Shown here piece after piece: positions 20,272 to 55,457 of a stretch of DNA of 64,000 nt (positions are counted from its first letter, which is position 1; the number at the start of each line of letters is the position of its first letter). The notes under the pieces are model-generated. The model was not told the origin of the DNA, ran no database searches, and saw only the letters and a program-made list of their open reading frames with translations. The translations under genes were made by a program, and so were the position numbers. The DNA is from Mesostigma viride (taxonomy: Eukaryota; Streptophyta; Mesostigmatophyceae; Mesostigmatales; Mesostigmataceae). The stretch is taken from the NCBI GenBank assembly GCA_009746045.1, contig RPFO01000080.1, forward strand, positions 8,817,628-8,881,627, in the 5' to 3' direction.

Positions 20272-20316
20272 CATAGCAATACCCCACCACACTCATCGAA
20301 AATGGCTGTGTTTGAG

Positions 20317-21760: not shown

Positions 21761-21769
21761 GCCTTCATG

Positions 21770-25262: not shown

Positions 25263-25489
25263 GCTCATTTCAGTTCGGTTGATTCTTCGCGCCGGTCAGC
25301 CAAGGAGTGACATACTTCACGTCGGGGTTTATCTTTAGTTGCGATACCACGCGTTTGCCGTTTCGCAACTTTTCGTCCAAATCGGTCCTCGCAAGAATCG
25401 CAACAAAAGTGTTTTTTGGTCCTCCTGGAAAGTTGCGTAGTTGCGATTCTTGTTGCGATACTGCGGGTGACCCCTGTAATGGCTGGCCG

Positions 25490-26380
25490 AGTAGCTAGGA
25501 GCACAGGCAGCTGGAGAGGGTGGCTGGCTGGCTGGCTGGTCATGGTGGGTGGATAAGTACAAGGGTGGTCGGTCATAGGTAGATGTCCAGGTGGCTGGGT
25601 GATTGATAGGCTTTGGGGACTGCGAAGTGGGTGGGTTGTTGGATTCGTGAGTGAAACAATGGCACGGTATTGAGGGTGGTGGGTTGGTGGTTGGTTGGTT
25701 AGGGATGCGTGTGTGTGGGTGGGTTGGTGGGTAGGCCATTGGTGGTTGGTGGCTGGTGGATGCGTAGATGACTATGTGGGTGGGTGGGCGAAGGGACGGG
25801 TAGATGGACGGGTGCGCGCACAGATATGGATGCGTGGATGGGTTTATGGTTGGGACCGTCTCACCTATCGCGAGTGAAGGGCTGTGCACGTTGGGGGTGA
25901 GGTAGGTGGGTGGGTGGCTGAGAAAATGCATGTGTGGGTGGGTCAGTGGGTGGGTCAGTGGGTATAAGGGTGTGGGGGCAGTGAGTGGTTGAGTGGGTAC
26001 TTGTAGGTGCGTGGGTGGGTCAAGGGTGGGCGGCCGCATGGGTGCATGTGGGGCCAGCTGGCTGGGTGTTTAGGCGGTTGGGTGATTGGGTGGTTGGCTC
26101 ATTGGATGGGTGAATGCCTCCTTATTACCTGATTGGTATGTGGGTTGCGCAGGTGCCTTGGTGGGTGGGTGGATGTCCAAGTGGGTTGGTAGGTGGTTGG
26201 GTGTCTAGGTGCACGCGTGGTTATAAAAGGTGGGTTAGCACGTGCGCAGCTGGCTGGGTGGGTGGGTCACTGGGTGGGTGGACGGGTGGGTGTCTAGGTG
26301 TACGGGCACGCGAGTGTGTGAGTAGTTGTGTGGGTGGGTGGCCAGGTGGCTGCATGGGTGGGCGACTGCATGGGTGGCTC
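25490..26380. repeat. GT-rich low-complexity DNA, right block
   Basis: Dense GTGGGTGGGTGG and GGTTGG runs. Trp/Gly- or Pro/Thr-rich frames on both strands reflect composition only. Confidence 0.85.
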
Positions 26381-26463
26381 AGTGCGCACAAAGTGCAAGT
26401 GATGGAGACATGGGATATTCCAATGCCGTATCATGTGAGCATACGCCCGATTTCTGGCCTGCG

Positions 26464-26625
26464 CTGGTTGTCTCCTTGATAATAACAATAGTGTGCTGGT
26501 TGTCTCCTTGATATGATTTCTGGCCTGCGCTGGTTGTCTCCTTGATAATAGTAATCTGGTTGTCTCCTTGATAATAGTAGTCTGGTTGTCTCCTTGATAT
26601 ATCTGGTTGTCTCCTTGATATAAGG
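26464..26625. repeat. Array of a 17-base motif CTGGTTGTCTCCTTGAT
   Basis: Six copies of the motif lie in about 160 bases with irregular spacers of 4 to about 30 bases (GATATGATTTCTGGCCTGCG and shorter). The same motif, usually as ATCAAGGAGACAAC, is scattered at 13310-13350, near 23818 and at 27626-27640. Confidence 0.85.
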
Positions 26626-26749
26626 CCTGCATGCAATCTAAGCTCAATTACTAATCTGAATTGATATACATGATTCCAAGTTGTAGTTAGTGTGAGTCAC
26701 GAGTTACACTCCTGTGTCAAAGATGCTAACTAATACTGCTACCACCCAT

Positions 26750-26996
26750 TAAATGAAATGAAATTAAATTATAACATGACTCCATTGGGAGATCATGTAG
26801 CACATATTCCCGTGGATGGATGGAGGGGGGGACAAAGCCGCGAAACCGAACTAATCTAACTCTAAGCTAATCTAATCTAGAAAACCCTACCTATTCTACT
26901 CAGCAAAGCGCCCCTTCCGCTTGGGGGGAGGGGGCTTGCCCACAGGGGCGGGCGTATGAGCCTGGACAATGGTCTTCCACCTCCTCTTGTCCTGCA
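26750..26996 (-). mobile_element. 5'-truncated LINE copy (3' end only)
   Basis: On the minus strand it encodes MQDKRRWKTIVQAHTPAPVG to KRKGRFAE, matching the ORF2 C-terminus of the LINE at 6380-12461. The LINE 3' untranslated sequence and A/T tail follow. It is flanked by a perfect 13-bp target duplication TGCTACCACCCAT (26737-26749 and 26997-27009). Confidence 0.9.
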
Positions 26997-27371
26997 TGCT
27001 ACCACCCATAACATCATTAAATCGGAATAGCCAATGTCCATGAATAAAAAAAAAATGAATAAATATAAATGAATGTCCAGGCATAGTTGTCTCACTTCAT
27101 GAATGAGCGGAGATATGTTCCTAATTTAATTTTTTAATTTTAATATCAATGACACGGCATATTTTGAAAGCCAACATGAATTGAGAATGAACGGTTGTAC
27201 CAATGCATGGTAATGCTAGCTGTCCGCTACTCAACCACTAATGGCCAACCATGACGGTTTTACGAATGGCATGGAAGTTCTGCTAGTCAACCATGAATGG
27301 CCTAACATTTCCACAATCACTGCATACCACCTAGCTAACTAACTAAATAATACATGAAGAGAGCTAGGGTA

Positions 27372-27625
27372 GAGAGCTTAGACTAAATTAAATTAAAATT
27401 AAATTATAACATGCCTCCGTTGGGAGATCATGTAGCACATATTCCATGATGGATGGTGGAGTGGAGAGAGCCGCGTAATCTAACTAACCTAACGCTAATC
27501 TACCTAGTCTAGAAAAATCCTAACTACCCTACTCATCAAAACGCCTCCTCCTCTTGGGGGGAGGTGGCTTGCCCACAGGGTCGGGCGTGTGAGCCTTGAC
27601 AATCTTCTGCCACCGCGTCTTGTTA
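27372..27625 (-). mobile_element. Second 5'-truncated LINE copy
   Basis: The LINE 3' end is inverted (KAHTPDPVGKPPPPKRRRR on the minus strand, near 27540-27600). It ends at CGCGTCTTGTTAT, where a copy of the AAGGAGACAAC motif sits between two GTCTTGTTAT direct repeats. Confidence 0.8.
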
Positions 27626-27658
27626 TCAAGGAGACAACAAGTCTTGTTATGCTTAGAC

Positions 27659-28103
27659 GTGGCGCCCCCGCAGGACTGCGACCAGCCCAGCCTGGCCGGC
27701 ACCTCCTGACGTGGGCTGGGCCCAGTGATGTTAGACGCCGCAAGGCCCGCACCTTCAAGGAACAGCTAGTGGAGGACATGGGGGGCCTAGGCCTCTCCGT
27801 GATTTGGAAGAAGATGATGGACAAGGCCAAGTGGGCCCAGGTCATAGAGGACAACGAGCCCCCCCAGTGGGGAAGCGCCCGCGTGTGCAATCCCGCGGGA
27901 GGCACGCCAGATAGCTACCCCTAGGGCAGCGGGCGGTTGCCTAGATAGATGTTGTAGTTAGAATGCTGTTAGATAGATGTAGTATGTAGCCAATGTAGAT
28001 TAGACCGGTAGGAATGTTTGCACCCATCCATCCATCCATCCATCCATCGGGGTTAATGCTCCGTGACTCCCCAACGGGAGCACGAGTCTAATTAATTAAT
28101 TAA
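27659..28103 (+). mobile_element. 5'-truncated copy of a related LINE
   Basis: The frame RRGAPAGLRPAQPGRHLLTW to GTPDSYP (stop at 27924) parallels GLAGPQRLGQPGRHILTWPG near the end of the full LINE's ORF2. It then has CATC repeats and a TAATTAATTAA tail. A perfect 12-bp target duplication TTATGCTTAGAC flanks it (27647-27658 and 28104-28115). Confidence 0.85.
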
Positions 28104-28209
28104 TTATGCTTAGACTAGAGTTGGCTTGATGTCGTAGATAGATTAGACCGGTAGGATTGTGTGTCCCCACCCATCCATCCATCGGGGTCAGAGTTCCATT
28201 ATACGTAAT

Positions 28210-28515
28210 ACGCGGTTATACGCGCAGGGTCCGTATAAAGTATAATACGGTATAATACGGTATAGTACACGATCGTACGTGACCACTAGATTTGATGGTT
28301 TTCAGGGCTGTTTCAACCATTTCTCACTCACTGACATGTTTGTGACACTAATAAGCATAGAATACACAGTTGGCTCACTGGCTCACTGGCTCACTGCCCT
28401 ACAAGGAACATATGATTTTACTGTCGTTCAACAAAGTAATCATACACGCATGCCGCATGGAGTCTAGTGTCCCTAGACCCACGATAAAACATCGCACACA
28501 TGCACGTTGAAGACA
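28210..28515. other. No gene; short TATACG/GTATAATACG repeats at its left end
   Basis: 28200-28275 has several TATAATACGG-like repeats. Three GGCTCACT copies lie near 28372-28395. Nothing else is seen. Confidence 0.5.
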
Positions 28516-28520
28516 CTTAC

Positions 28521-29102
28521 CATGCAAAGAAATACTCATTCATGCAATATATAGGCAAATAATGTATGAGCCAGCTGTGCATCGTGCAAGTTGCTGCCCT
28601 TTGCAGTGAAAGCATACCGGCTCTGCCTGACCCCTGCATGCCGGTTAGCCATACCATATTTCTATACCTACTTTTTGATAGAAAAAGAAGGGCCAAGAAA
28701 CTGGGGAACAAATCGAGCTTCTACAATGCTGCACAACCACCATGCCAATACCTGACTTCCAGAAGGTTTGCACAGCTTTGCTACCATCAAGTAAACAAAG
28801 AAAGCTGCAGCAATGATGTCCGCAATTCTCACAGCACAGGTCCGGTATGTGCAGCAGTCACGGTGCATTGATAAATCGGCATCAACTTGGCTCATACGAG
28901 CTATCCTGAAGACTGCCTGAGCAGCCAAGGTAATCCACAAACTATCGTGGCGAATGGTTACACGAGCGGCCCTCTTTATGTATATAACAACCAAACCTTG
29001 ACGGACCACTGGAACCGCGGCCGTCGTGACGCTTTGCAGTTGTAAAATATTCGAAGCCTCGGATTCGTGAGTACACGATAAAGAATAGACACCAGAAGCC
29101 AT
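28521..29102 (-). CDS. Possible spliced ORF of unknown function in the cargo right arm
   Basis: The minus-strand ATG at 29102 opens MASGVYSLSCTHESEASNIL and reads 117 codons to 28752, where CAG is followed by GTATTG. A TGCATGCAG acceptor at 28634 leads in the same phase to GSGRAGMLSLQRAATCTMHS and on to 28521, where GCATG is followed by GTAAGTG. The first exon has a hydrophobic stretch (IADIIAAAFFVYLMVAKLC), a possible membrane segment. I recognise no family and the last exon is not identified. It could be a captured host fragment or chance. The copy at 58489-59070 is the same. Confidence 0.35.
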
Positions 29103-29857
29103 ACAGTCTGCAAGCCTACACTAATACTAACAAAGACCTGAGAGCCCTACAGCTGGCCTCAATCCGTACCACTAAAGGTGCAAATGAAAGCCTGCCCCAT
29201 TTTCTGACGCTTCTTAAACTGCGCATCATCGTCATGACCAACCAAGGCTGCGATTCTTGATGAAATTTTAGAGTGCCTGCCGCTTCAAATTTCAATATTC
29301 CCATAAGTTTGCTCACCTTTCAGTTAACGCTCACCTTCCTGTTAACTAGTGTCCATATCTGACCATGTCCGAGGCAAGGGCCATCAAATTTTGCACGCCT
29401 CCCAGCGCCTCCTAAGTATTTGCACCTTAGGAATACAGTACACCCACAGTACGCCCTGTCGGCTTTGAACAAGCCATGAGGCAAGTATTATACTCCTTTT
29501 AGGTACCCACCGAAAGTCGTATGTGAGCACGCTCGTTGCACGTTTGGCGAAATTTCCCCTTGGATTAATATTAAAACGAGTTCGCCTTATTAGTCTCCAC
29601 CTTCCTGCCTGCCCTGCCACGGAGGCAGGTGGTCACTATAACTCGCGGTTCCATTGTACGGTTACGGATACGGTCCATGACAACTCGTACGGTGCGTGAA
29701 ATCCCTCGTACGGGCGACAAAATTCCTTCATACGGTCCATGACAACATCCTACAGTTTCGGTTCTTTTAGTTTCCGTTACGCGATTTTAGGTACCGCGCT
29801 GTGGTTCGACGGTACTTGGGGACCGAAAAGGACTGAACCGGTCGCGAAAAATATACC
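29103..29857. other. Cargo right arm, no gene seen
   Basis: It holds short GTACGG-type repeats near 29657-29740, just inside the right terminal inverted repeat. Confidence 0.5.
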
Positions 29858-29902
29858 CTCAAACACAGCCATTTTCGATGAGTGTGGTGGGGTATTGCTA
29901 TG

Positions 29903-30771
29903 GGGTGATGGCCCCCGCGTCCGTGGCGGGGGACGAGGAGCCTGCAGAGGGGTATCCCTTGCACAGCTCACACCCAGCGGCCCAGCAAGGGGCGCGGGGG
30001 GGTGGGACAATCCTGCCCGGCGCCAAACCAGTGGCCCCAGCACCGGCGCGAGCCAAGACAGCCAAGTGTCCCAAGTGCCGCCATCGCACGTGCCGTTGCA
30101 GCAGCAGCAGCAGCGGCAGCAGCAGCAGCGACAGCAGCAGCGACTCGGGCCGGCGCAGCAGCAGCCGGCGCCGCAGGGACCGCCTACCGGGTCGCGCCGA
30201 CCCAGCGAGCGGCCAGGTGTTGGCTGTGCCCATGACCAAGGGGGTCGCCCTGCCGGGGACTGCCACCAGCATCCCTTGGGAGGTGGAGTACTACCGGTAC
30301 AAGCTGCGGGTGCTGCCCGAGTACCTGCAAACGGCCAAGGACCGGTACGGGGGCAGTCTGCGGGCCCGGCTGGAGGGCCTGAAGCCCATGTTCATCCGTG
30401 GGCCAGGCCAGACCAGCGGGTGGCAGAGTCGCGAGCACATGGACATCGCGGTCAACCTGTGCCACGCCCTGGACGTGGCGGTGAAGGAGCTGGGAGTCAC
30501 GGCGGTGACCGAGCTCGCGTGCATGGAGTACTTTGCACGCATCGTGGAGTCACTCATGGTGGTGGAGAGCGAGCGGGGCCAGGGCGCGTGGGTCGCCCAG
30601 GCCGCCTTCGTGCTGCCGGTGGTGGAGAGCGGCAGCCAGCGGACGAAGGCGGCGCGACGGGCTCTCAAGGCCGCCAAGAAGGAGCACGACGCGCGGGTCA
30701 GCGCGGCGGTGCTGGCCAAGGTGGATGGGGGGGCGGTGGCCTCCTCCTCCGCCAGCAACAAGCAGAAGTGA
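29903..30771 (+). pseudogene. Gag of B1, C-terminal part, after the cargo
   Basis: It resumes with MAPASVAGDEEPAEGYPLHS. A Cys/His patch (KCPKCRHRTCRC) follows, then an (AGC)n-coded Ser/Arg-rich segment. The conserved Gag block follows: KGVALP, the KLRVLPEYL region, and NLCHALDVAVKELG...CMEYFARIVESLMVVE. It ends in a Lys/Ala-rich tail at a TGA (30769-30771). The CxxC...CxC patch could bind metal and nucleic acid but is not a standard zinc knuckle. Pol begins in the -1 frame over the stop. Confidence 0.7.
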
Positions 30772-33700
30772 GGGGGCGCGGCGTGTTCCCCCTCCCAGTT
30801 CCGGCCGTCCAGCCCCTCGACCGGTCCCGCCTGCGCTCACGACGCAGGCTGCAGCGAGCCACGCGGCGGCGGGCACGCTTGCTGCTCATGGTCCGGCTCG
30901 TGGAAGGCCTGAACTGGATGTGGGGGGGACACGGGAACCGCCTGTGGGGGCGGCCGGGTGTGGGGCGGGGCCAGCAATGGCCACGCCTGCCGGCGGGCCC
31001 CCAGGGCGCGGCACTAGCGGGGCGACGGCAACGGCTCCCTGCACCGCTGCCCAGCAGGCGGCCCTACAAGGGCTGGAGATTGCCGCCCAGGTCCATGAGC
31101 GCCGGCTGAGAGCCGTAGCGGCAGAGGACCTGGTGCATGACGTTGAGTCTGGGCCCTATGGGCCCGACGGGCAATATGAAATGATTGTCCCAGAGAGACT
31201 TGCGCTGCCCGCGGGCGGAGTGGCGGGCAGCGTGCCGCTGATGGACTGCCTCCCCCCCAGTGGAGGGAGGTATATGGCAACATAAAAAATATTTTGAGGG
31301 AGGAGGAGGTAGTGCAGCCAGGGCGTCGACGGCGAGTGACGCATGGCTGTGCGAGCGACACAGAGTACGCGCGCCTGAGCGTGCGGCTGGCGGAGACCGG
31401 GATGACAGAGTACAGCGAGGAGGAGCCCCCGGTCACCAACGGCCTGTTCGGCGTGCCCAAGCGCGATCCAGGGGTGGTGGACCCGTCAGCCCAGCGCCAG
31501 CGACTCATCTGCAACATGGTGCAGAGCAACGACAAGTTCCTCACCCCTGGCGGCTGTTACCTGCCAGATGTGGGGGCGGTGGCCGAGATGGCAGGGGGCG
31601 CGCCCAGCTACTCGAGCAAAACGGACCTGGAGACGTACTACTACCGCTTCTCCGTGCCAACGGAGTGGCGGGAGTGGTTCGCGCTGCCCCCAGTCTGGTC
31701 GGACGAGGTCGGCCAGCCCGGGGAGCGCCGCCGGCTCTATCCCAGGTTCCGTGTTCTGGTGATGGGGTGGTCTCACTCGGTCCTGCTGGCGCAGGTGGCG
31801 CACATGCAGACCCTGTTCGGGCCGGGGAAGCTGAACCCCGGGCTGAGTGTGAGCGTCCCGATGCATCAGCTCGGGGTGCGCACAGTGCGTGAGGGAGGAC
31901 GGGAGTGGATGGAGTTGGTGGGGGCCGCCGAACTTGACTGGCAGCTGCTGCCCGAGGACCCTCCTCGGCCGGCGCAGTTGGTCATGATCGACGACCTGGG
32001 CACCACACACGCGCGCAGCGCAGCGGAGGCGAACGCGCTGCTGGACCGCGCATGCACCGAGTGCTACGCGCCAGCTGGCCTGGTGGTGAATGAGAAAAAG
32101 GTCGAGCGGGCGCGGGAGGTCAAGCTGTGGAGATCCTGGGCATCGAGTTTCACCAAGATGGGAGCTTGTGGCCGTCGGCGAAGCGACTGGCCCTCCTGGT
32201 CCACGACACCGAGGCGGTGCTGGCCCGGGGACGTGCAAGCTACCATGAGTTGGCCTCCCTACTGGGACGCTGGGTATGGATCCAGCTGCTGCGCAGGAGT
32301 CTGCTAAGCACCTGGTTCCACGCCTACAGGATGCTCCACCAAGTGCTGGCCCTCCGCAAGGGAGGACGCTTCCAACTCTGGGCAAGTGTGCGCCGGGAGC
32401 TCTGGGCGGCTGTCTGCCTGGCTCCCCTGGTGCATGCGCAGCGCAACCAGCCACTGGACACCACCGTCGTGGCCAGTGACGCGTCGAGCCGGGGCTCCGG
32501 TGTGGTGTACGCCCGTCTGGCAGAGGCAGACGTGAAGGCTTTGTCCAACTGCCGCGAAATGAAGGGGTGGAAGACTCTGTGTGTCGGGTCGGAAGAGGTC
32601 GGTGTGGAGCGAACGGGGGAGAGGGAACATCGGGCGGTGGCGACCGCCCGCTGGCGTGTGGCGGTGAAACACCGGTGGAGGGACGCGGGGGCGCACATCA
32701 ATGAGAAAGAGGCGCGCGCAGCCGTGCAGAGCCTGGAGTGGGGGCTGCGCACGCGGGCGCGGTGGGGGCGACGGCACGTACGGCTGGTGGATAACACCGC
32801 CGTTCTGGGCGCAGTGGTGAAGGGGCGGTCATCATCTTACCGCCTCAACACGTGGTGCCGCCGCGCTGCCGCCCTGGGCTGTGCCAGCAACACCAGGTAC
32901 CACTGGGTGTACATCCGCTCGGAGCGAAACCCCGCTGACGCGCCCAGCCGGGGCCGGTGGGTGCGGGACCTTACCGCCGATGGCGATGTGGAGAGTAACC
33001 CGGGGCCGGGAGGGCGGCAGGAACTGCTGGAGAGCACCGTGCTGCCCGCGACCCTGCGCAGCTACCATCGCGCAGTGATCGCGTACCTCCTGTGGGCTGA
33101 GCCCTATGGTGCTGTACCGCCGGAGGAAGCGGAGAGCGTGTTCTGCGAGTGGCTCGTGTCTGTCTACGAGGATGGAGGGGGAGCAGGGCGTTCCATGTGC
33201 ATGAGGGCGCTGTGTGGGCTGCAACTGTACTACCCCAGCCAAGTGCAGGGGTGGCGCGAGGCCCGCCGGCTCCTGTACGGGTGGCAGCGACGCGTGCAAA
33301 CGCATAGCCCCAATCCGGTGCCGTGGGAGCTGCTCTACCTGGTGGTGCAGATCCTCCGCTGGCAGGGGGCGCCCATGGCAGCAGCCGTGTGCGTCATCAC
33401 TTTCCAGCAATACCTGCGCATCGGGGAGGCCTTCAAGCTCCGAGTGGGGGACGTGGCACTGCGTGGCGACCGTCGCCTGGGGCAGCGGGGACTGGGCGCG
33501 CTTCTTCTGCGGGATCCCAAGACAGCCAAGGGGGGTGCACAGGCGGTGGTGGTGCAGGATCCCCTCTCGCTGTACGTGCTCGAGCGCCTGTGCGCTGGGC
33601 GGGAGCCCGAGGAGCCCTTGTTTGGGAGCCTCAACTACAGCCAGTTCTCTCGTCGGTGGCACGCGGCGTGGGATGTTCTGGGCCTGCGGGGGATGTTTCC

Positions 33701-33911
33701 GCCCTACTCCATGCGACATGGTGGGGCAACGTACGACTACCTGCAGGGCGTTTCACTCCCAGACATCCAGAAGCGCGGGCGTTGGCGCCAGTTCAAGTCG
33801 GTGGACCACTACGTGGGCCTGCACCGTGCTCTAGCGGTGCAAGTGCCGCGGTGGGTGTGGTTGCTGGCTGAGGAGTTCCCCCCCGCTCAGTGGAGTTCAC
33901 ACTGGCAGTAG
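30768..33911 (+). pseudogene. Pol of B1: RT, RNase H, 2A and tyrosine recombinase, with two frame breaks
   Basis: The first segment (VRGRGVFPLP..., GLNWMWGG, CTAAQQAALQGLEIAAQ) is in the -1 frame to Gag and open to 31285. The RT continues in a different frame from a run of seven C (31252-31258). A second break near 32119 is a 1-bp deletion relative to B2. Landmarks are KTDLETYYYRF, MIDDLG, GLVVNEKK, LGIEFHQDG, then RNase H SDASS, INEKE, LVDNTA and NPADAPSR, the 2A motif at 32982-33008, and recombinase YLRIGEAF, YSMRHGGAT, RGRW and VDHYVGLHRA. The frame from 32127 to 33911 is open. Confidence 0.88.
32982..33008 (+). other. 2A ribosome-skipping motif, B1
   Basis: GDVESNPGP preceded by WVRDLTAD. 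It fits the D-V/I-E-x-NPG|P consensus. The predicted skip is between Gly and the last Pro (33005|33006), which releases the recombinase with an N-terminal Pro. Confidence 0.85.
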
Positions 33912-34198: not shown

Positions 34199-34246
34199 CT
34201 CTACAACCACTCCAGATGCGGCCGGGGACGGCCAGGTTGGAGATGC

Positions 34247-34402
34247 GGGTGTTATATGGTGGCAGCCGCCTGGGACTTGCGCACAATTTGCCAGTCTCTC
34301 GGTCTACCAAGGCCTGCAAGCGGCTTAAGCATATAATTTTGCAATAAACAAGTTCTGGTGCCTTCTCAAACAAAGTGAACCTGAAAGCATGCACAGAGGA
34401 TG
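34247..34402 (+). repeat. Segment S of B1 (3' untranslated, AATAAA)
   Basis: It starts GGGTGTTATATGGTGGCAGC, contains GCAATAAACAAGTTCTGG and ends CAGAGGATG directly before R. It also occurs at 34925-35078 and 39921-40076; element C has a diverged version. It probably holds the polyadenylation signal. Confidence 0.8.
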
Positions 34403-34875
34403 GTTGATCTTACGATCTGGATTCCCTGATTTGCGACTAAGGGGAGCGGAGTGCGAGTCGGTGCCGCTGCCTCATGGCTGATCTGCGAGAAATGCTCCTG
34501 GAAAGGGTGAAAGTCCCTGCAAATGACCTCTGGACTGCTTCCAAGTACTTGGATGTAGTTCAAAGTACTTCATTGGTACTACAGGGTAGTACAATCTACT
34601 TCAAACTAGTTCAAACTAGCTCAGGCTAGTAAAGATTCGTTCAGGTGTAGCACAACCTGCCTAGGAGGTGGTATGACCACCTGGGTTGAAGTAGACAGTG
34701 ACTAAACGTAGTACAATGTCGAAAGAATCAGTACAAATGGGTTCTTTGTAGTACAACTGTTCAGTGGCACCTGGGCGCCGCGCCAGTATTGTACTGGACT
34801 TGCATCCGTCACCGTGCGCATGCAATGCAGCCAATTTATTGAGGAAGACATGGCGGCGCATGCTTTATCAGTTTT
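34403..34875 (+). repeat. Terminal direct repeat R, 3' copy of B1
   Basis: Matches 18678-19142 apart from an 8-bp indel and a few substitutions. A CCCACCC-rich tail to about 34898 follows; the same tail follows R at 40549 but not the 5' copies. Confidence 0.9.
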
Positions 34876-34924
34876 CCCCACCCACCCACCCTCTTTTGTT
34901 TGTTTGTTCGTTTGTTGTCTCTGG

Positions 34925-35078
34925 GGGTGTTATATGGTGGCAGCCGCCTGGGACTTGCGCACCATTTGCCAGTCTCTCGGTCTACCAAGGCCTGCAAGCG
35001 GCTTAAGCATATAATTTTGCAATAAACAAGTTCTGGTGCCTTCTCAAACAAAGTGAACCTGAAAGCATGCACAGAGGA
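34925..35078 (+). repeat. Second copy of segment S beyond R
   Basis: Nearly identical to 34247-34400 but not followed by R. With R it forms an S-R-S arrangement like the B1-A2-B2 end of split-direct-repeat (PAT/Ngaro-type) elements. It could instead be the stump of another element. Confidence 0.75.
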
Positions 35079-35129
35079 GTGGTGGTGGATGTGTACAAAG
35101 ACCAAGTAGCATCCCGTTTTCAGCGCCTT

Positions 35130-35642: not shown

Positions 35643-35920
35643 TACTCAGGGCAGTTCGTGTCTTGAGCGCCCAAGCCGTAAGGGCTTTCTCACCCTTGCT
35701 GTAGAAAGGTTGATGTGTAAACCTCCTACAGAGGCTTTGCAAAATCCCGTCAAGGCAGCGATGGTATCCGCATTTGGTACCTTGGGTGATCAGCATGGTA
35801 TGAGGATGTTGGTAGATACGCAGGCGAGAACCTCCATAGAATCCCTGCACTACAATCCTGTGAGACCCTCAGTGCACTGGGAGTGTGTGACTGATTTTGC
35901 TGGCTCAACGAAGTTCCCTG
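35643..35920 (+). pseudogene. Retropepsin-like fragment, N-terminal half, split by B2
   Basis: RMLVDTQARTSI resembles the catalytic D-T-G-A/S motif of retroviral-type aspartic proteases, with Gln in place of Gly, which should impair it. The coding sequence is broken at 35920 by element B2 and appears to resume at about 40577 (SHGVIDVNVLG...GPPILGQNFL), where ILGxxFL is the second retropepsin landmark. It belongs to an old LTR retrotransposon. Confidence 0.5.
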
Positions 35921-36392
35921 GTTGATCTTACGATCTGGATTCCCTGATTTGCGACTAAGGGGAGCGGAGTGCGAGTCGGTGCCGCTGCCTCATGGCTGAT
36001 CTGCGAGAAATGCTCCTGGAAAGGGTGAAAGTCCCTGAAAATGACCTCTGGACTGTTTCCAAGTACTTGGATGTAGTTCAAAGTACTTCATTGGTACTAC
36101 AGGGTAGTACAATCTACTTCAAACTAGTTCAAACTAGCTCAGGCTGGTAAAGATTCGTTCAGGTGTAGCACAACCTGCCTAGGAGGTGGTATGACCACCT
36201 GGGTTGAAGTAGACAGTGACTAAACGTAGTACAATGTCGAAAGAATCAGTACAAGTGGGTTCTTTGTAGTACAACTGTTCAGTGGCACCTGGGCGCCGCG
36301 CCAGTACTGTACCGGACTTGCATCCGTCACCGTGCGCATGCAATGCAGCCAATTTATTGAGGAAGACATGGCGGCGCATGCTTTATCAGTTT
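35921..36392 (+). repeat. Terminal direct repeat R, 5' copy of B2
   Basis: Begins GTTGATCTTACGATCTGG and ends ATCAGTTT. Joined directly to the last codons of gag by an internal deletion. Confidence 0.9.
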
Positions 36393-36442
36393 AGGAGGAC
36401 AAGGCGGAGGGAGGAGTGGCGGGCTCTTCCCAGAAGAAGTGA
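36393..36442 (+). pseudogene. Last codons of gag in B2
   Basis: EDKAEGGVAGSSQKK and a TGA (36440-36442) correspond to the KVDGGAVASSSASNKQK end of Gag in B1. All upstream gag sequence is missing. Confidence 0.65.
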
Positions 36443-36960
36443 GAGGGCGAGGTGTATTCCCCCTCCCAGAGGTGGCCATCAAGCCCCTCGACCGCGCGCG
36501 CCTACGGTCCCGACGTAGGTATCAGCGGGCCATGCGGCGGCGGGCCCTGCTCCTGCGCAGCGCGCGAATCGTGGATGGCCTCAACTGGTTGTGGAGGGGA
36601 GCACAGGAACCGCCTGAAACGGGTCCTGTCGGTGGCATGCGGATGGCTTTGCCCGCACCTGTTGCCCAGGAGCCCGCGGGTTGCGGTACCAGCGGGGTGT
36701 CCTTAGTGACCCCCTGCACTGCGGCCCAGCAGGCGGCCCTACAAGGGCTGGAGATTGCCGCCCAGGTCCATGAGCGCCGGCTGAGAGCCGTAGCGGCAGA
36801 GGACCTGGTGCATGACGTTGAGTCTGGGCCCTATGGGCCCGACGGGCAATATGAAATAATTGCCCCGGAGAGACTTGCGCTGCCCGCGGGCGGAGTGGCG
36901 GGCAACGTGCCGCTGATGGACTGCCTCCCCCCCAGTGGAGGGAGGTATATGGCAATATAA
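36439..36960 (+). CDS. Pol of B2, N-terminal region upstream of the RT
   Basis: Open in the -1 frame relative to the gag remnant, overlapping its TGA; a GTG, not an ATG, lies at the overlap. It has a basic, helical block (RLRSRRRYQRAMRRRALLLR, GLNWLWRG) and TAAQQAALQGLEIAAQVHER, both conserved in all copies here. It ends at 36960 because of a run of seven C (36927-36933). After a -1 step there the chain would read QWREVYGNIKNILREE and join the 871-codon frame. In element C the same junction is continuous without any step. Role unknown, perhaps an RT connection or RNA-binding segment. Confidence 0.6.
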   Translation: MRGRGVFPLPEVAIKPLDRARLRSRRRYQRAMRRRALLLRSARIVDGLNWLWRGAQEPPETGPVGGMRMALPAPVAQEPAGCGTSGVSLVTPCTAAQQAALQGLEIAAQVHERRLRAVAAEDLVHDVESGPYGPDGQYEIIAPERLALPAGGVAGNVPLMDCLPPSGGRYMAI

Positions 36961-36968
36961 AAAATATT

Positions 36969-39584
36969 TTGAGGGAAGAGGCAGCGCAGCCAGGGCGTCG
37001 ACGGCGAGTAACGCATGGCTGTGCGAGCGACACGGAGTACGCGCGCCTGAGCGTGCGGCTGGCGGAGACGGGGATGACAGAGTATAGCGAGGAGGAACCA
37101 CCGGTCACCAACGGCCTGTTCGGCGTGCCCAAGCGCGATCCAGGGGTGGTGGACCCGTCAGCCCAGCGCCAGCGACTCATCTGCAACATGGTGCAGAGCA
37201 ACGACAAGTTCCTCACCCCTGGCAGCTGTTACCTGCCAGATGTGGGGGCGGTGGCCGAGATGGCAGGGGGCGCGCCCAGCTACTCGAGTAAAACGGACCT
37301 GGAGACGTACTACTACCGCTTCTCTGTGCCAACGGAGTGGCGGAAGTGGTTCGCGCTGCCCCCAGTCTGGTCAGACGAGGTCGGCCAACCAGGGGAGCGC
37401 CGCCGGCTCTATCCCAGGTTCCGTGTTCTGGTGATGGGGTGGTCCCACTCGGTCCTGCTGGCGCAGGTGGCGCACATGCAGACCCTGTTCGGGCCGGGGA
37501 AGCTGAACCCCGGGCTGAGTGTGAGCGTCCCGATGCATCAGCTCGGGGTGCGCACAGTGCGTGAGGGAGGACGGGAGTGGATGGAGTTGGTGGGGGCCGC
37601 CGAGCTTGACTGGCAGCTGCTGCCCGAGGACCCTCCTCGGCCGGCGCAGTTGGTCATGATCGACGATCTGGGCACCACACACGCGCGCAGCGCAGCGGAG
37701 GCGAACGCGCTGCTGGACCGCGCATGCACCGAGTGCTACGCGCCAGCTGGCCTGGTGGTGAATGAGAAAAAGGTCGAGCGGGCGCGAGAGGGCCAAGCTG
37801 TGGAGATCCTGGGCATCGAGTTTCACCAAGATGGGAGCTTGTGGCCGTCAGCGAAGCGACTAGCCCTCCTCGTCCATGACACTGAGGCGGTGCTGGCCCG
37901 GGGACGAGCAAGCTACCATGAGCTGGCCTCCCTACTGGGACGCTGGGTATGGATCCAACTGCTTCGCAGGAGTCTGCTAAGCATCTGGTTCCATGCCTAC
38001 AGGATGCTCCACCAAGTGCTGGCCCTCCGCAAGGGAGGACGCTTCCAACTCTGGGCAAGTGTGCGCCGGGAGCTCTGGGCGGCTGTCTGCCTGGCTCCCC
38101 TGGTGCATGCGCAGCGCAACCAGCCGCTAGACACCACCGTCGTGGCCAGTGACGCGTCGAGCCGGGGCTCCGGTGTGGTGTACGCCCGTCTGGCAGAGGC
38201 AGACGTGAAAGCTTTGTCCAACTGCCGTGAGATGAAGGGGTGGAAGACTCTGTGTGTCGGGTCGGAAGAGGTCGGTGTGGAGCGAACGGGGGAGAGGGAA
38301 CATCGGGCGGTGGCGACCGCCCGCTGGCGTGTGGCGGTGAAACACCGGTGGAGGGACGCGGGGGCGCACATCAATGAGAAAGAGGCGCGCGCAGCCGTGC
38401 AGAGCCTGGGGTGGGGGCTGCGCACGCGGGCGCGGTGGGGGCGACGGCACGTACGGCTGGTGGATAGCTCCGCCGTTCTGGGCGCAGTGGTGAAGGGGCG
38501 GTCATCATCTTACCGCCTCAACACGTGGTGCCGCCGCGCTGCCGCCCTGGGCTGTGCCAGCAACACCAGGTACCACTGGGTGTACATCCGCTCGGAGCGA
38601 AACCCCGCGGACGCGCCCAGCCGGGGCCGGTGGGTGCGGGACCTTACCGCCGATGGCGATGTGGAGAGTAACCCGGGGCCTGGAGGGCGGCAGGAGCTAC
38701 TGGAGAGCACCGTGCTGCCCGCGACCCTGCGCAGCTACCATCGCGCAGTGATCGCGTACCTCCTGTGGGCTGAGCCCTATGGTGCTGTACCGCCGGAGGA
38801 AGCGGAGAGCGTGTTCTGCGAGTGGCTCGTGTCTGTCTACGAGGATGGAGGGGGAGCAGGGCGTTCCATGTGCATGAGGGCGCTGTGTGGGCTGCAACTG
38901 TACTACCCCAGCCAAGTGCAGGGGTGGCGCGAGGCCCGCCGGCTCCTCTACGGGTGGCAGCGACGCGTGCAAACGCATAGCCCCAATCCGGTGCCGTGGG
39001 AGCTGCTCTACCTGGTGGTGCAGATCCTCCGCTGGCAGGGGGCGCCCATGGCAGCAGCCGTGTGCGTCATCACTTTCCAGCAATACCTGCGCATCGGGGA
39101 GGCCTTCAAGCTCCGAGTGGGGGACGTGGCGCTGCGCGGCGACCGTCGCCTGGGGCAGCGAGGCCTGGGCGCGCTTCTTCTGCGGGATCCCAAGACAGCC
39201 AAGGGGGGTGCACAGGCGGTGGTGGTGCAGGATCCCCTCTCGCTGTACGTGCTCGAGCGCCTGTGCGCTGGGCGGGAGCCCGAGGAGCCCTTGTTTGGGA
39301 GCCTCAACTACAGCCAGTTCTCTCGTCGGTGGCACGCGGCGTGGGATGTTCTGGGCCTGCGGGGGATGTTTCCGCCCTACTCCATGCGACATGGTGGGGC
39401 AACGTACGACTACCTGCAGGGCGTTTCACTCCCAGACATCCAGAAGCGCGGGCGTTGGCGCCAGTTCAAGTCGGTGGACCACTACGTGGGCCTGCACCGT
39501 GCTCTAGCGGTGCAAGTGCCGCGGTGGGTGTGGTTGCTGGCTGAGGAGTTCCCCCCCGCTCAGTGGAGTTCACACTGGCAGTAG
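36969..39584 (+). CDS. Pol of B2: reverse transcriptase, RNase H, 2A, tyrosine recombinase (871 codons)
   Basis: The frame is open from a TTG and has no ATG start of its own, so translation must come from the upstream frame. RT: Asp in SSKTDLETYYY (110), catalytic IDD (231-233), GLVVNEKK (261-268), EILGIEF (279-285). RNase H: SDAS (Asp395), INEKE (469-472), LVDSS (Asp499), NPADAPSR (Asp548). The 2A motif GDVESNPGP ends at Pro571. Recombinase (571-871): Arg708 in YLRIGEAF, Lys742/745, YSMRHGG (Arg807, with Tyr instead of the usual His at 804), Trp830 and nucleophile Tyr839 in DHYVGLH. Domain order is that of DIRS-type elements. This is the best-preserved copy. It probably yields RT-RNase H and recombinase as separate proteins through the 2A. 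Confidence 0.92.
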   Translation: MREEAAQPGRRRRVTHGCASDTEYARLSVRLAETGMTEYSEEEPPVTNGLFGVPKRDPGVVDPSAQRQRLICNMVQSNDKFLTPGSCYLPDVGAVAEMAGGAPSYSSKTDLETYYYRFSVPTEWRKWFALPPVWSDEVGQPGERRRLYPRFRVLVMGWSHSVLLAQVAHMQTLFGPGKLNPGLSVSVPMHQLGVRTVREGGREWMELVGAAELDWQLLPEDPPRPAQLVMIDDLGTTHARSAAEANALLDRACTECYAPAGLVVNEKKVERAREGQAVEILGIEFHQDGSLWPSAKRLALLVHDTEAVLARGRASYHELASLLGRWVWIQLLRRSLLSIWFHAYRMLHQVLALRKGGRFQLWASVRRELWAAVCLAPLVHAQRNQPLDTTVVASDASSRGSGVVYARLAEADVKALSNCREMKGWKTLCVGSEEVGVERTGEREHRAVATARWRVAVKHRWRDAGAHINEKEARAAVQSLGWGLRTRARWGRRHVRLVDSSAVLGAVVKGRSSSYRLNTWCRRAAALGCASNTRYHWVYIRSERNPADAPSRGRWVRDLTADGDVESNPGPGGRQELLESTVLPATLRSYHRAVIAYLLWAEPYGAVPPEEAESVFCEWLVSVYEDGGGAGRSMCMRALCGLQLYYPSQVQGWREARRLLYGWQRRVQTHSPNPVPWELLYLVVQILRWQGAPMAAAVCVITFQQYLRIGEAFKLRVGDVALRGDRRLGQRGLGALLLRDPKTAKGGAQAVVVQDPLSLYVLERLCAGREPEEPLFGSLNYSQFSRRWHAAWDVLGLRGMFPPYSMRHGGATYDYLQGVSLPDIQKRGRWRQFKSVDHYVGLHRALAVQVPRWVWLLAEEFPPAQWSSHWQ
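38655..38681 (+). other. 2A ribosome-skipping motif, B2
   Basis: GDVESNPGP at residues 563-571 of the open pol frame, between the RNase H NPADAPSR and the recombinase. The predicted skip lies between bases 38678 and 38679, leaving a 301-residue recombinase. Confidence 0.88.
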
Positions 39585-39872: not shown

Positions 39873-39920
39873 CTCTACAACCACTCCAGATGCGGCCGGG
39901 GACGGCCAGGTTGGAGATGC

Positions 39921-40076
39921 GGGTGTTATATGGTGGCAGCCGCCTGGGACTTGCGCACAATTTGCCAGTCTCTCGGTCTACCAAGGCCTGCAAGCGGCTT
40001 AAGCATATAATTTTGCAATAAACAAGTTCTGGTGCCTTCTCAAACAAAGTGAACCTGAAAGCATGCACAGAGGATG
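39921..40076 (+). repeat. Segment S of B2
   Basis: Same as 34247-34402, with AATAAA near 40017. Confidence 0.8.
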
Positions 40077-40549
40077 GTTGATCTTACGATCTGGATTCCC
40101 TGATTTGCGACTAAGGGGAGCGGAGTGCGAGTCGGTGCCGCTGCCTCATGGCTGATCTGCGAGAAATGCTCCTGGAAAGGGTGAAAGTCCCTGAAAATGA
40201 CCTCTGGACTGTTTCCAAGTACTTGGATGTAGTTCAAAGTACTTCATTGGTACTACAGGGTAGTACAATCTACTTCAAACTAGTTCAAACTAGCTCAGGC
40301 TAGTAAAGATTCGTTCAGGTGTAGCACAACCTGCCTAGGAGGTGGTATGACCACCTGGGTTGAAGTAGACAGTGACTAAACGTAGTACAATGTCGAAAGA
40401 ATCAGTACAAGTGGGTTCTTTGTAGTACAACTGTTCAGTGGCACCTGGGCGCCGCGCCAGTACTGTACCGGACTTGCATCCGTCACCGTGCGCATGCAAT
40501 GCAGCCAATTTATTGAGGAAGACATGGCGGCGCATGCTTTATCAGTTTT
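40077..40549 (+). repeat. Terminal direct repeat R, 3' copy of B2
   Basis: Followed by a CCCACCC-rich, T-rich tail to about 40575, where the split retropepsin frame resumes. Confidence 0.9.
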
Positions 40550-44158: not shown

Positions 44159-44185
44159 TGGCCCCGGATTGCTCTCCACGTCGCC
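44159..44185 (-). other. 2A ribosome-skipping motif, element C
   Basis: GDVESNPGP preceded by WVRNLTAD. Flanks differ from B1/B2 (HGRQELLEAT follows), while the nine core residues are unchanged. Confidence 0.87.
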
Positions 44186-46345
44186 ATCCGCAGTGAGGTT
44201 GCGCACCCATCGACCACGACTGGGCGCGTCGGCCGGGTTGCGCTCCGACCTCACATACACCCAGTGGTAGCGGGTGTTGCTGGCCAGCCCTAGCGCGATC
44301 GCCCGGCGGCACCAGGCGTTCAGCCGGTAGGACGACGAACGCCCTTTGACGAGCGCACCGACAACTGCCGAATTGTCCACCAGCCGCACGTGACGTTGCT
44401 GCCAGTGAACCTGTGAGCGCAGGCCCCACTCGATCCCTTGCACAGCCGCACGAATCTCCTTCTCGTTGATGTGGGCCGAGGGATCGAGCCACCGGTGGGC
44501 AAGAGCGGTGCGCCACTGCGCCGCTGCCATGGCTCGGTGCTCAATCTCCCCTGTGCGCTCCACGCTGGCCGTCTCAGAGTCCACACAGAGCGTCTTCCAG
44601 CCCTTCCGCTCCCGACAGTTGGACAGGCCACGCACCGCAGGCGCCTCCCACCGGCTGTACACCACCCCAGAACCGTGGGTTGACGCATCAGTGGCCACCA
44701 CGGTGCAGCTCAGGGGCTGGTCGCGCTGCGCATGCACCAGCGGGGCCAAGTCCATTGCAGCCTGGAGCTCTTCCCTTACACTACCCCACAGCCGATAGCT
44801 CCAGCCCCGCTTGTGCACCAGGACTTGCTGCAGCAAGCGGTAGGCGTGAAACCAGATGGACAGTAGACCCCGACGCAGCAAGTGGACCCACACCCACCGT
44901 CCCAGCAACGAGGCCAGTTGGTGGTAAGTGGCCCGTCCACGCCCCAGCATTGCCTGCGTGTCGCGCACCAAGGCCGCCATCCGGGCCGCGCTCGGCCGCA
45001 TGGACCCGTCCTGGCAGAACTCAATCCCCAAGATTTCCACCGGGCGCCCCTCCTCAGCTCTCTCCACCTTCTTCTCGTTGACCACCAACCCCTTGGGACC
45101 GTAGCTCTCCTCGCACGCCTTGGTGAGCACGGCGTTGGTCTCCTCCGCGCTCCGCCCATGGGTGACCCCCAGATCATCGATCATGACCAGCTGAGCGGGA
45201 TGTGGGGGATCCTCCGGCAGCAGCCGCCACGCTGCACTGGCTGCGCTCTCCACCAACTCCAGCCGGTCCATCCCCGCGCACTGTGCGCACCCCCATCAAG
45301 TGCATGGGATATGACAGCCCTCTCTTGGCATCGAGCACCCCGCCCCGTAGAGACAGTGCAGGTGGGCAACCTGTGCAAGGACCACCGAGTGGCTCCAGCC
45401 CATGACAAGGACCCGGAACCTGGGGTACAACTTTCGCCGTCGTCCCAGCTGGCCGACCTCATCGGACCACACGGGGGGCAGCGAGAAATAGGGGCGCCAG
45501 CTCTCAGGTACCTCGAACCGGTAATAGTAGGTGTCAAGGTCTGTCTTGCCCGAATAGCATGGCGCCCCCACACTCAGCTCAGCGACCTCGCCCAAGTTAG
45601 GCAGGTAACAGGTAGGCGGCTTGAGGAAGCGCCGGTTGCACGGCACCATATTCCCTATAAACCGCTGCCGTCGTTCGCTGGGCTCCACAACCCCGGGGTC
45701 TTTCTTGGGGACGGCAAAACAGCCGTTCACCACAGGGGCGCCTCCTCACTGTACTCGATCATCCGCGTCTCCGCCAGCCTGATGCTCAGTCGTGCGTACG
45801 CCGCATCGCTTGCACAACCATGAGACACCCGGCCCCGCCGCATCCACGCCCCCGCCTCCGCGTCGCATCTTTGTAGAATGTTGTTTATGTCCTCATACGT
45901 CCTCTGCCATGCCTCCGGCAGGCAGTCCAGCAGCTTGACACTACCTGCAGCTCCTCCTTTTGGCAGTGCCAGCCTCTCCGGGTCAATAATTTCGTATTGA
46001 CCGCCCGGCCCGTATGGCGCGGGCTCTGCGTCCCCCGTGTCTGTCGCCTCCGCTACGGCGGTAAGCCGGCGGTTGTAGACGCGGGCAGCATCCTCCATCC
46101 CTTGTAGGGCGGCCCTTTGGGCGACGGTGCAGGGGCTCGCAGTAATAGCCTGCTGCTGCACCGCCGGTCCACCGGACCGTTCCCGGGTCCTGCCCCACAG
46201 CCAGTTCAGGCCCCTTGTGGCCCGCTCTTGACACCGCAGCCTTGCTCTGGCACGCAGAGCGCGCTGCAGCCTGCGGTTGGATCGCAGGCGGCTGCGGTCG
46301 AGCGGGGGACCATCTTCACTGGCAGCGGGAGCACACCCCTGCCCC

Positions 46346-47090
46346 TCACTTGTCCTTTTTGGCCGCCGCCGCCGCCGCCGATGCCAGCTCCGCCTCCTGG
46401 CGAGCCGCCTTCCGCGCTGCCCGGGCTGCTGCGCTTCCAATAGTACTGCCCTCCACCAGTGGCAGCAGGTGCATCGCCCCGTTGTTCCAGCCGCTGGTCT
46501 TCTCCACCATGAGGAACGCCTCGACCACACGCGCCAGGTACTCGAAGCAGGCCAGCTCCGTCACCACATCCTCCCCCAGCTCTTGGATGGCCACATCCAG
46601 AATGTAGGTCAGGTTGTTGCACACCAGATGGTGCGTGCTGTTCTTCCACCCGCGGGGGGCTCCCGGTGCAGCCCCAACGCCCTCCTGCTCCTTGCGAAGG
46701 GCCAAGCGGGCCTGCAGGCTCCCGTGCGCGACCTGGCGCGCATCCAGCACCTGCAGCGGCAGCACCCTGTCGTCGCGGTCCTTGACCAACAGGCGCCAGG
46801 CCACTTTGAAAGCTCGCCGGGGGAGACGCACCCCCTTGGTGGTTCGGCGCAGGTCTCTCTCCCTCACACGCTCCCGCGATCGACGCGAGCTCCGCTGGGA
46901 GGAGTCCCGACTCGTGCTCCGGCTGCTGGACCGCTGCCGCTCCTTGCGACGCTCGCGGGAGCGATCCCGACGCCCCTTGGGCTCCGCAGAACGGCCCCTG
47001 CCATGCCCACGTCGCTCCCGGGACTTGTCGCGGCGCGACCGAGCGCCACCCCTGCCCCTGCCACGGCCTCTGCTCTCGCTGTCGGAGCTG

Positions 47091-47153
<63 letters not shown>

Positions 47154-47864
47154 GCGACTCTCGTCGCTCCCACTGCTGGTGTCTGTCGAGCCTGGGCTGC
47201 TCCCGCGCCGCGCGCGTCTCTTCTCCTGGCGCTTGCTCTTCGGATGGCCCTTGCCCCCCTTGTCCTCGCGCTGGCTCTTCCCTTTCCTCGCGTCCCTCCT
47301 CTTCCCCCGCGCCAGGGCTTGCAACTCCGCTCCGATGAGCTCGCGGACGCCCGCCAGAAGGGCAGCATTCTCTGCCAGCTTTCGGTTCCTGCCCTGAGAC
47401 TTCTTTCCCTTGGCGCGAGCAGCAGCAGGGGCCAGCTGCTCGCGCGCGTCCAAAAAATCCTCAGAGCTCGTCGCGTCCTCCTCTTCCTCGTCGGTGCCGT
47501 TGCTGGGAGGATCCTTTCGGGTCCTTTCGCCCCTGGCTGGACCAGTCTTCCCCTTGCCCCCAGTGGCCACTGGGGGCTTCTTCATCTCTAGAGTAATGGC
47601 CTTGCACAACATGGAACCCATGTCGGAATCACTTGACCCCTCACTAATCTGGAGCCCTGCAGTCTTGAGAAACTGTCCCAAGGATGTCAAACGACCCTCA
47701 GACATAGTAGTAAGCCTTTGGGCCCAGTTTGGACCGAGATACTCAGTCAAGAACTTCAAAGTCGTTAACAACTCCTTGCCCCCCTGAAAATACGATTTTT
47801 TCACATTTAATAAGAAATCTCGGTCTACTGCCTCAAGGGTGGTGTCTTCGTGATCACTAGCCAT
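46346..47864 (-). pseudogene. Gag of element C, with a frame switch in a CTG repeat
   Basis: ATG at 47864 (MASDHEDTTLEAVDRDFLLN). The N-terminal block KSYFQGGKELLTTLKFLTEY matches Gag of B1. Then come Lys-rich and acidic segments (TDEEEEDATSSEDFLDAREQ), a basic region, and a poly-Ser tract coded by AGC repeats at 47151-47092. After the tract the sensible protein lies in another frame: SR-rich (SRERRKERQRSSSRSTSRDS), then KGVRLP, the VLPLQVL segment and NNLTYILDVAIQELG...CFEYLARVVEAFLMVE, ending KKDK and TGA (46346-46348). Best complete view of the Gag domain order in this window. Confidence 0.75.
47092..47151. repeat. (CTG)20 trinucleotide repeat in gag of element C
   Basis: About 20 perfect CTG units, read as AGC (Ser) or GCA (Ala) on the minus strand. 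The gag frame changes across it. Confidence 0.95.
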
Positions 47865-48105
47865 TATAGAATTCAAAGATGAAGAAATTTCTCACAACTA
47901 GGCTCAATATTCCGCAATCTTGGAGACTGAGAAAAATTTCGGACTGAAAATTTGTCACTCAGTTCTACCTTGCGGACTTTTACTCCCGTTGCGCAAACCC
48001 GTCAAAACTTGGTGCGAAAACCGTCAAAATGATGTCGGCTATTGTCTCACGATTAGTTTGACACCAACTTTGTCAAAAACGGTGAAGTATTGCTCTAGTT
48101 GTGTT

Positions 48106-48613: not shown

Positions 48614-48639
48614 AGACTTCGTCAGAGGATTGAGGATGG
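48614..48639. repeat. 26-bp direct repeat, right of element C
   Basis: Same 26 bases as 42445-42470. Its last base is the first base of R of element B3. Confidence 0.9.
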
Positions 48640-49111
48640 TTGATCTTACGATCTGGATTCCCTGATTTGCGACTAAGGGGAGCGGAGTGCGAGTCGGTGC
48701 CGCTGCCTCATGGCTGATCTGCGAGAAATGCTCATGGAAAGGGTGAAAGTCCCTGCAAATGACCTCTGGACTGCTTCCAAGTACTTGGATGTAGTTCAAA
48801 GTATTTCATTGGTACTACAGGGTAGTACAATCTACTTCAAACTAGTTCAAACTAGCTCAGGCTAGTAAAGATTCGTTCAGGTGTAGCACAACCTGCCTAG
48901 GAGGTGGTATGACCTCCTGGGTTGAAGTAGACAGTGACTAAACGTAGTACAATGTCGAAAGAATCAGTACAAATGGGTTCTTTGTAGTACAACTGTTCAG
49001 TGGCACCTGGGCGCCGCGCCAGTACTGTACCGGACTTGCATCCGTCACCGTGCGCATGCAATGCAGCCAATTTATTGAGGAAGACATGGCGGCGCATGCT
49101 TTATCAGTTTT
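48639..49111 (+). repeat. Terminal direct repeat R of B3
   Basis: 473 bp, without the 8-bp deletion of the B1 5' copy, with private variants (CTCATGGAAAGG, GTATTTCATT, GACCTCCTGG). Confidence 0.9.
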
Positions 49112-49204
49112 CTTTGCCGTTTCTTGGTCAAAATCACTCGTTCTTTTTGCGCTCTTTAAAGCTCGATAATTTCCACGTCATATTAAGTGATTTCGCAGCA
49201 AAAA

Positions 49205-50239
49205 ATGGGGTCGAATGAGCCCATTCCGAGAGGTTTCGCGCAAACTGCACGAAATCTTTATTTTGCAGCAAATAAGGATAGCACTTCGTTGGCCACTTTG
49301 ATAGTGGGTTCCCTCGGTCCTGCCTACAAGGCAAGACTTGCAGCTTCTTCAAAAAGTCCCTTAGACTCATTAGGACGGTATTTGGTGAGTGTGGGATATG
49401 AAATAGAAGCTAGCAGCGAGCCAGCACAACTGGGAAAGAATATCGCGTTTTCCTTGGAGCACAAACTGCCAGAGGGGTTCCTGGCCGAAATGGGGGCCGA
49501 GGAGGGCTTCGTAGGCTCTGAGGAGGCCGAAGATATGTTGGGGGACATGTCTGGGGCCTCTGGAGATGAGCAGAATGATGGGGCGCCTCAAGCTGCGAAT
49601 TTTTCCAATGATTTGGCAAAATTTGCGGCAACCATGGGCAACATGAGCATAGAAGCCCTAGGATCGGCTCAGGAGACTGGCACAGGTCTCCCAGGGGGTG
49701 GGGAGACTGTTGGCAGAGGTGCCACGCCATTTGCTGGGCGAGGGAAGGTGGTGGGAGGCACCCCCTGGTGGCTGGAGGGGCCAGGGGAAAGGGGGTAGGG
49801 GGCACGGCCCCAACTGTGGGGGGGGGGCGCAGCGGTGGCAAGGGAGGGGCTGCGGGGGCCCACCTGTTGGCCATGGACCCCTCCATGATGGCCCGCATGG
49901 GCGCCGTCATGGGAGGACAGGGGGTGATGGGTGCGGGGGGGGTGGGGGGGGGCCCTGCCGGCTTGCAGGGAGGAGGGCACCCCCCATTGGGCCCTGCACT
50001 GCGAGTGCCGGGTGGGCACACCCCTCAAACCCACCCCGGGATAGCCCCACTGTGGGCTGGTGGCCTGCACGCCACGGGGGTAGCCCCTCCATGGGGGTAC
50101 ACCAGTGGGGCAGGGGAAGGAGCAGTGCCAGGGGGCGGTTACTGGGTGCCTGCCCCCCCCCCGGGGTACTGGGGAGCCGGGTGGCCGGGGGCTCGAGGCC
50201 CAGGCACTGGGGAAGAGCCCCGGGGCGGCCAGGGGGGAT
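49205..50239 (+). pseudogene. Gag of B3, N-terminal part, frameshifted and cut by the cargo
   Basis: ATG at 49205 (MGSNEPIPRGFAQ). Same domains as the B1 counterpart. One T is missing in CCCCCTGG near 49767, so the frame ends at 49798 and the Gly-rich continuation is in another frame to 50244. Amino-acid changes against B1 include Gln to Pro in HKLQEG/HKLPEG. Confidence 0.7.
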
Positions 50240-55444: not shown

Positions 55445-55457
55445 TAATGGCTGGCCG

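Follow-up and report, generated by a model that had tools for sequence, protein, structure and literature searches.

A candidate 2A/StopGo signal between RNase H and tyrosine recombinase in retrotransposons of Mesostigma viride

A 64,000-nucleotide stretch of the genome of the streptophyte alga Mesostigma viride (hereafter the window) contains retrotransposon Pol sequences in which RNase H (RH) is followed by the peptide GDVESNPGP and then by a tyrosine recombinase (YR). This raises the question of whether the peptide acts as a 2A/StopGo signal, parting the reverse transcriptase (RT)-RH protein from the recombinase during translation, or whether the joint is a linker, a protease site or an RNA signal.

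An earlier note on this DNA had placed GDVESNPGP at the RH/YR boundary in three copies. The peptide is indeed encoded at 32982-33008 (+), 38655-38681 (+) and 44185-44159 (-), referred to here as copies A, B and C, and in all three it is in frame with RH upstream and YR downstream. Copy C, unlike the other two, is read from the minus strand. Copies A and B are almost the same sequence (99.3% amino-acid identity over 597 codons), and the copy C protein is 72% identical to copy B. The core is the same in copies B and C, as had been claimed, with four synonymous changes and no amino-acid change in its nine codons. A degenerate-codon pattern for the peptide matched these three window sites only, and 100 dinucleotide-preserving shuffles of the window gave a mean of 0.00 matches (largest 0), so a chance origin was ruled out. 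With the near-identical copies A and B counted as one, there are two versions of the GDVESNPGP family in the window, alongside a diverged fourth element. This element, at about 2.7 kb, carries WVRDLTAEGIHPNPGP with NPGP at 2699, and its core, GIHPNPGP, makes two departures from D(V/I)ExNPGP. Two fetched proteins labelled jgi/Mesvir1, which we take to denote M. viride, correspond to these loci: P0003 was 100% identical over the query region, and P0008 matched window positions 1968-3637 at 100% in two adjoining frames. The segments that carry the motif are as follows.

32958 to 33008, plus strand: 2A segment of copy A, same as that of copy B, within a Pol match at 30768-33908 with several frame breaks
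38631 to 38681, plus strand: 2A/StopGo segment of copy B, WVRDLTADGDVESNPGP, found by codon pattern; pLDDT below 50 at model residues 555-572
44159 to 44209, minus strand: 2A segment of copy C, WVRNLTADGDVESNPGP, within a Pol match at 46344-43289
2504 to 3640, plus strand: frame of the diverged element with WVRDLTAEGIHPNPGP and YR; RT-RH lies in the neighbouring frame 1164-2678

The available text of Li et al. (2026; PMC12846837) widens the StopGo core to (D/G/C/N)(V/I)ExNPGP and defines upstream classes. There, motif 4 is WV(R/K)DLTx[acidic]G, with DLTxDG before p12 = D and Ser favoured at p15, and motif 1 has Pro at p15 and puts (R/K)DLTxE ahead of G; the examples tested from the two classes reached almost 100% activity in reticulocyte lysate. 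The window motif with its upstream residues, WVRDLTADG-DVESNPGP, fits motif 4 as given in that text, and the motif 1 form was found in P0010, P0054 and P0055. The same source reports that a form with H at p14 is more than 95% active, and a form with G at p12 active, each in its own context. Both P0008 and the 2.7 kb element have H at p14, which P0008 combines with G at p12. In the Mesostigma-type relatives the core varies at the free position only (S, A, R or T). The window copies present the core octapeptide, a known upstream class and an in-frame site between RH and YR.

These observations bear on how the joint would work. Very probably, the Pol of this YR retrotransposon, apparently of the split-direct-repeat kind, has a working 2A/StopGo that gives two enzymes from one frame. 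A ribosome translating WVRDLTADGDVESNPG would let go of the RT-RNase H product with no stop codon involved, then continue from Pro into the tyrosine recombinase as a second protein; in copy B the predicted skip lies before 38679, parting the final Gly codon from the Pro codon. Separation by the true 2As is a well-supported prediction that agrees with the known StopGo rules, and we infer the skipping in the host, its efficiency and the benefit of separation to transposition. It may instead be that skipping is partial, leaking by design to yield free enzymes plus some fusion that takes the recombinase into the particle. Sea-urchin proteins with partial 2A separation and a functional role provide a precedent in the accessible part of Li et al. 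(PMC12846837), but the tested member of the motif 4 class was almost fully active there, and we consider a designed leak unlikely.

Separation by the 2A is also supported by the structure model of P0002, which draws on 45 relatives and has a mean pLDDT of 87.4. Only residues 2-11, 429-433 and 555-572 fall below 50 pLDDT, and the last stretch, which equals WVRDLTADGDVESNPGP plus one residue, lies between RH and YR; in the model, the 2A motif is in a flexible joint. In a hand-picked alignment of 45 Pols, which has no dinoflagellate LLLL-type rows, no column between Arg552 and Tyr590 is invariant other than Gly570 and Pro571. In a Foldseek search with the P0002 model, the best match to the RT/RH part was the HERV-K RT (E 1.6e-11), and among the 50 matches listed all were RT and none YR. 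RVT_1 scored above its cut-off in the relative P0010, as did Phage_integrase above its curated cut-off, whereas the latter fell below it in P0002 (E 3.5e-4).

The earlier note had called the element at 36969-39584 intact across the motif and its Pol DIRS-type, and both points need qualification. The parts of the element and its repeats are listed here.

36855 to 39584, plus strand: frame of the copy B Pol, uninterrupted across RT, RH, 2A and YR (frame analysis)
38682 to 39584, plus strand: YR portion of copy B, with a Pfam Phage_integrase hit to residues 700-840 below the curated cut-off
35919 to 36392, plus strand: repeat A1 of copy B, 99.8% identical to 40075-40548
39918 to 40078, plus strand: repeat B1 of copy B, abutting A2 (repeat comparison)
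40075 to 40548, plus strand: repeat A2 of copy B (repeat comparison)
34244 to 35083, plus strand: repeats of copy A, with B1 at 34244-34404, A2 at 34401-34905 and B2 at 34922-35083

The copy B frame is open across the motif, but the whole Pol match spans 36439-39581 and is broken near 36927-36936. Because this match begins 47 bases past the upstream repeat, copy B has no room for gag. The Pol of copy A is broken in more places. RT, RH and YR are all present, as a DIRS-type Pol would have, but the repeats appear to be split direct repeats of the PAT/Ngaro kind rather than in the inverted layout of DIRS1. A1, B1 and A2 were found at copy B and B1, A2 and B2 at copy A, with all four in no single copy; copies A and B together give the A1-ORFs-B1A2B2 plan of PAT/Ngaro elements. 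No inverted repeat pair was detected in the window at a minimum length of 100 (shorter ones would escape). A gag-like frame at 46206-47891 (-) lies upstream of the copy C Pol and matched no Pfam family above cut-off; long Ser/Gln runs occur in several frames. A Pfam scan of P0002, P0004, P0005 and P0007 found no methyltransferase domain, and a precomputed listing gives a cytosine methyltransferase domain (PF00145) in the related RH-containing proteins P0026, P0030 and P0033. Elsewhere in the window, a 12 kb stretch occurs twice (18676-30735 and 48637-60703, 99.8% identity), reflecting either a recent duplication or an assembly effect, and 52953-53693 and 22985-23725 hold a tandem array whose unit measures about 43 bases.

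The earlier note had proposed a search of YR-retrotransposon Pols for the 2A core at the RH/YR boundary. Three protein searches, in each of which about 8000 candidates were scored with retrieval words from regions including the motif, gave 276 proteins with overlaps (51 listed; the best 120 of 126; the best 120 of 316), or a survey set of 277 with P0002. Using domain HMMs built from the survey proteins, with HMM seeds and class patterns that used the motifs, we classed these, among the matches listed, as 211 with RH then YR and 66 with RH only. The 2A core (His allowed at p14 or p16) was at the joint in 132 of the 211 listed fusions, comprising 120 of an LLLL type and 12 of a DLT type, while only 1 of the 66 listed RH-only proteins had it (P0009, with 38 residues beyond RH). 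Most of the listed RH-only proteins (62/66) end no more than 48 residues past RH.

Of the 110 listed relatives first found by a dinoflagellate-type query, 108 carry (N/H)PGP at the joint, preceded mostly by LLLLxG, another known StopGo class; the LLLL-type members include the Symbiodinium protein P0262. The LLLL-type recombinase is homologous to that of the Mesostigma type, whose HMM matched all 120 of the listed LLLL-type proteins (profile comparison probability 99.6). By a simple pattern, the recombinase's first catalytic Arg is replaced by His (LHPxE) in 118 of 120 listed dinoflagellate-type proteins (such as P0018 and P0169-P0278). The Mesostigma-type alignment found no relative among viral contigs. 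A search with a degenerate WVRDLT-2A pattern had no matches.

The proposal that a 2A parts RT-RNase H from the recombinase within one frame is therefore the best-supported reading, given the tested class, the flexible joint and the recurrence in distant elements. Among the 79 listed fusions lacking the 2A core, 62 have another Gly-Pro-ended motif, chiefly FDSTLG(F/Y)PGEGP (37); the others are GEAxxPGP (14) and GDGP-type (11). The remaining 17 comprise three decayed 2As (P0169, P0202, P0255), three proteins ending GDGP (P0104, P0109, P0142) and 11 with nothing recognisable, suggesting that some fused Pols may work unsplit.

In P0056-P0100 and P0105-P0119, FDSTLG(F/Y)PGEGP, SSDxxGDGP or R(V/I)GEAxxPGP occupies the 2A position. 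In the P0058 model, FDSTLGxPGEGP falls within the joint at 656-686, which is predicted with low confidence. This motif is doubled in tandem in P0075 and P0077 (2/37), and away from the joint it was found in none of the 277 survey proteins. For the DNA of this class, there was no exact pattern match in viral contigs and no relative in prokaryote genomes. The recombinase core in the alignment of this class gave one short, weak match, in a 19.5 kb IMG/VR contig (L001:3001-3129, 43% identity). In a 73-row quick tree with the joint excluded, P0010 (WVRDLTEEGIEPNPGP) pairs with P0057 (FDSTLGFPGEGP) with support 99, and the six joint classes need 16 changes where the minimum is 5. A 46-row quick tree places P0010, P0054 and P0055 as sister to P0056 and P0057, inside the FDSTLGxPGEGP class (class C). 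Keeping the 13 class C rows together was rejected (p-AU 2.5e-7), for a group that was named after the tree was seen. Identity among these proteins is 56-65% in RH and 60-63% in YR. A second swap pair, P0105 (RVGEASNPGP) and P0109 (NSDGDGP), is 63% identical in RH and 66% in YR. Because a 2A has replaced FDSTLG(F/Y)PGEGP inside the latter's own clade, the Gly-Pro motifs may be unrecognised StopGo signals. From their position, conservation and replacement, the non-2A motifs may also free RT-RH from YR. We tentatively suggest that the RH-YR joint of YR retrotransposons could be a StopGo hot spot at which several signals are new and lack NPGP (PGEGP, GDGP).

Selection on the motif could not be argued from the window copies. 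Between copies B and C, 62 of 645 17-codon windows have at least 16 of 17 residues identical, which is the level of the motif plus its upstream residues; with so many windows equally conserved, these copies alone are too weak as proof of special selection. In a 4-row Mesostigma-type alignment the motif window ranks 67 of 437. To check conservation without motif-based choice, rows were picked by relatedness and dereplicated. Gly-Pro is present at the joint of all 56 dereplicated relatives of P0018 (at least 45% identity), in which the 9-residue window ranks 15 of 496. The 37 dereplicated relatives of P0058 (at least 40%) comprise 28 of class C, seven of class D (GDGP) and two with a true 2A, and in all 37 the Gly-Pro falls in one shared pair of columns, while the 14 columns that follow average 0.46. 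The class C window ranks 2 of 436 with motif-picked rows versus 43 of 435 with relatedness-picked rows, in part because the latter set includes D and 2A rows. For class B (GEAxxPGP), the eight relatedness-picked rows all keep Gly-Pro, but the window ranks only 229 of 478, versus 1 of 452 with motif-picked rows. Among linkers of up to 120 residues (202 of the 211 listed fusions), 195 contain Gly-Pro, whereas 300 shuffles gave a mean of 100.2 and a largest count of 120; after dereplication the figures are 60 of 65 and a mean of 30.3 (largest 41). Pro-Gly is enriched in the linkers likewise.

It could be argued that the motif is a relic, an old 2A that is now a mere linker in a single RT-RH-YR protein: the window copies are mostly damaged, 11 of the 211 listed fusions have no recognisable motif, and three dinoflagellate-type proteins have decayed or lost cores. 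A relic should decay in distant lineages, however, and the P0018 relatives keep the Gly-Pro throughout; RH-only relatives, moreover, stop where the motif would be. We regard this as highly improbable. Cleavage after translation by a motif-recognising protease would suit motifs that vary among clades and sit in a flexible joint, as protease sites often do. Yet no protease family was detected in the Pol and gag proteins scanned, and the feature common to all classes is the Gly-Pro pair, the bond at which StopGo acts and an unusual one for proteases, making this equally hard to favour. That the conserved letters are an RNA signal rather than a peptide is scarcely credible even though no DNA was found for the other motif classes in viral contigs and prokaryote genomes, because copies B and C keep the core peptide despite their synonymous changes and Rfam has no match in the window.

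If the 2A does separate the two enzymes, a virus-type recoding signal is placed at the heart of a retrotransposon enzyme set and offers a simple route from fused Pol to free recombinase that needs neither a protease nor a second frame. These natural families, in which a known 2A and an unfamiliar motif ending in Gly-Pro take each other's place, also make a search for StopGo signals beyond NPGP testable by the standard two-reporter assay. The earlier note knew of no description of a 2A between RT-RNase H and a tyrosine recombinase, and no report of a 2A in a YR retrotransposon was found in the literature searched, of which the longer result lists were covered in part. The papers listed for PGEGP, judged by title and the start of the abstract, included none on transposons.

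In 2013, Odon et al. reportedly described 2A-like sequences in APE-type non-LTR retrotransposons, which resemble the Mesostigma element in having a 2A in a retroelement. Those elements are said to be LINE-type, without a recombinase and with the 2A on the N-terminal side. The DIRS1, PAT and Ngaro elements share RT, RH and YR with those described here, and PAT and Ngaro have the A1-ORFs-B1A2B2 split direct repeats that the Mesostigma copies appear to show in combination. In the available parts of their descriptions (PMC3266345, PMC8547959), the YR of DIRS-order elements is in its own, often overlapping, reading frame, as the earlier note had said, whereas the Mesostigma YR is fused behind the 2A in one frame. 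SymbioDIRS-Dnmt3 of Symbiodinium is a dinoflagellate DIRS-like element that likewise has RT, RH and YR, but with the recombinase in a separate frame, and the accessible text makes no mention of skipping (PMC5890265). The viral 2A/StopGo signals of FMDV, teschovirus and others share the core D(V/I)ExNPGP, the single open frame between two products and the upstream classes (DLTxDG before p12 = D, (R/K)DLTxE before p12 = G, and LLLLSG-like). The source treats RNA-virus data, and DIRS, recombinase and reverse transcriptase are absent from its available text (PMC12846837). Unlike the viral signals, the Mesostigma motif is in YR retrotransposons, between RT-RNase H and the recombinase, and there StopGo seems to be a known mechanism in a new place.
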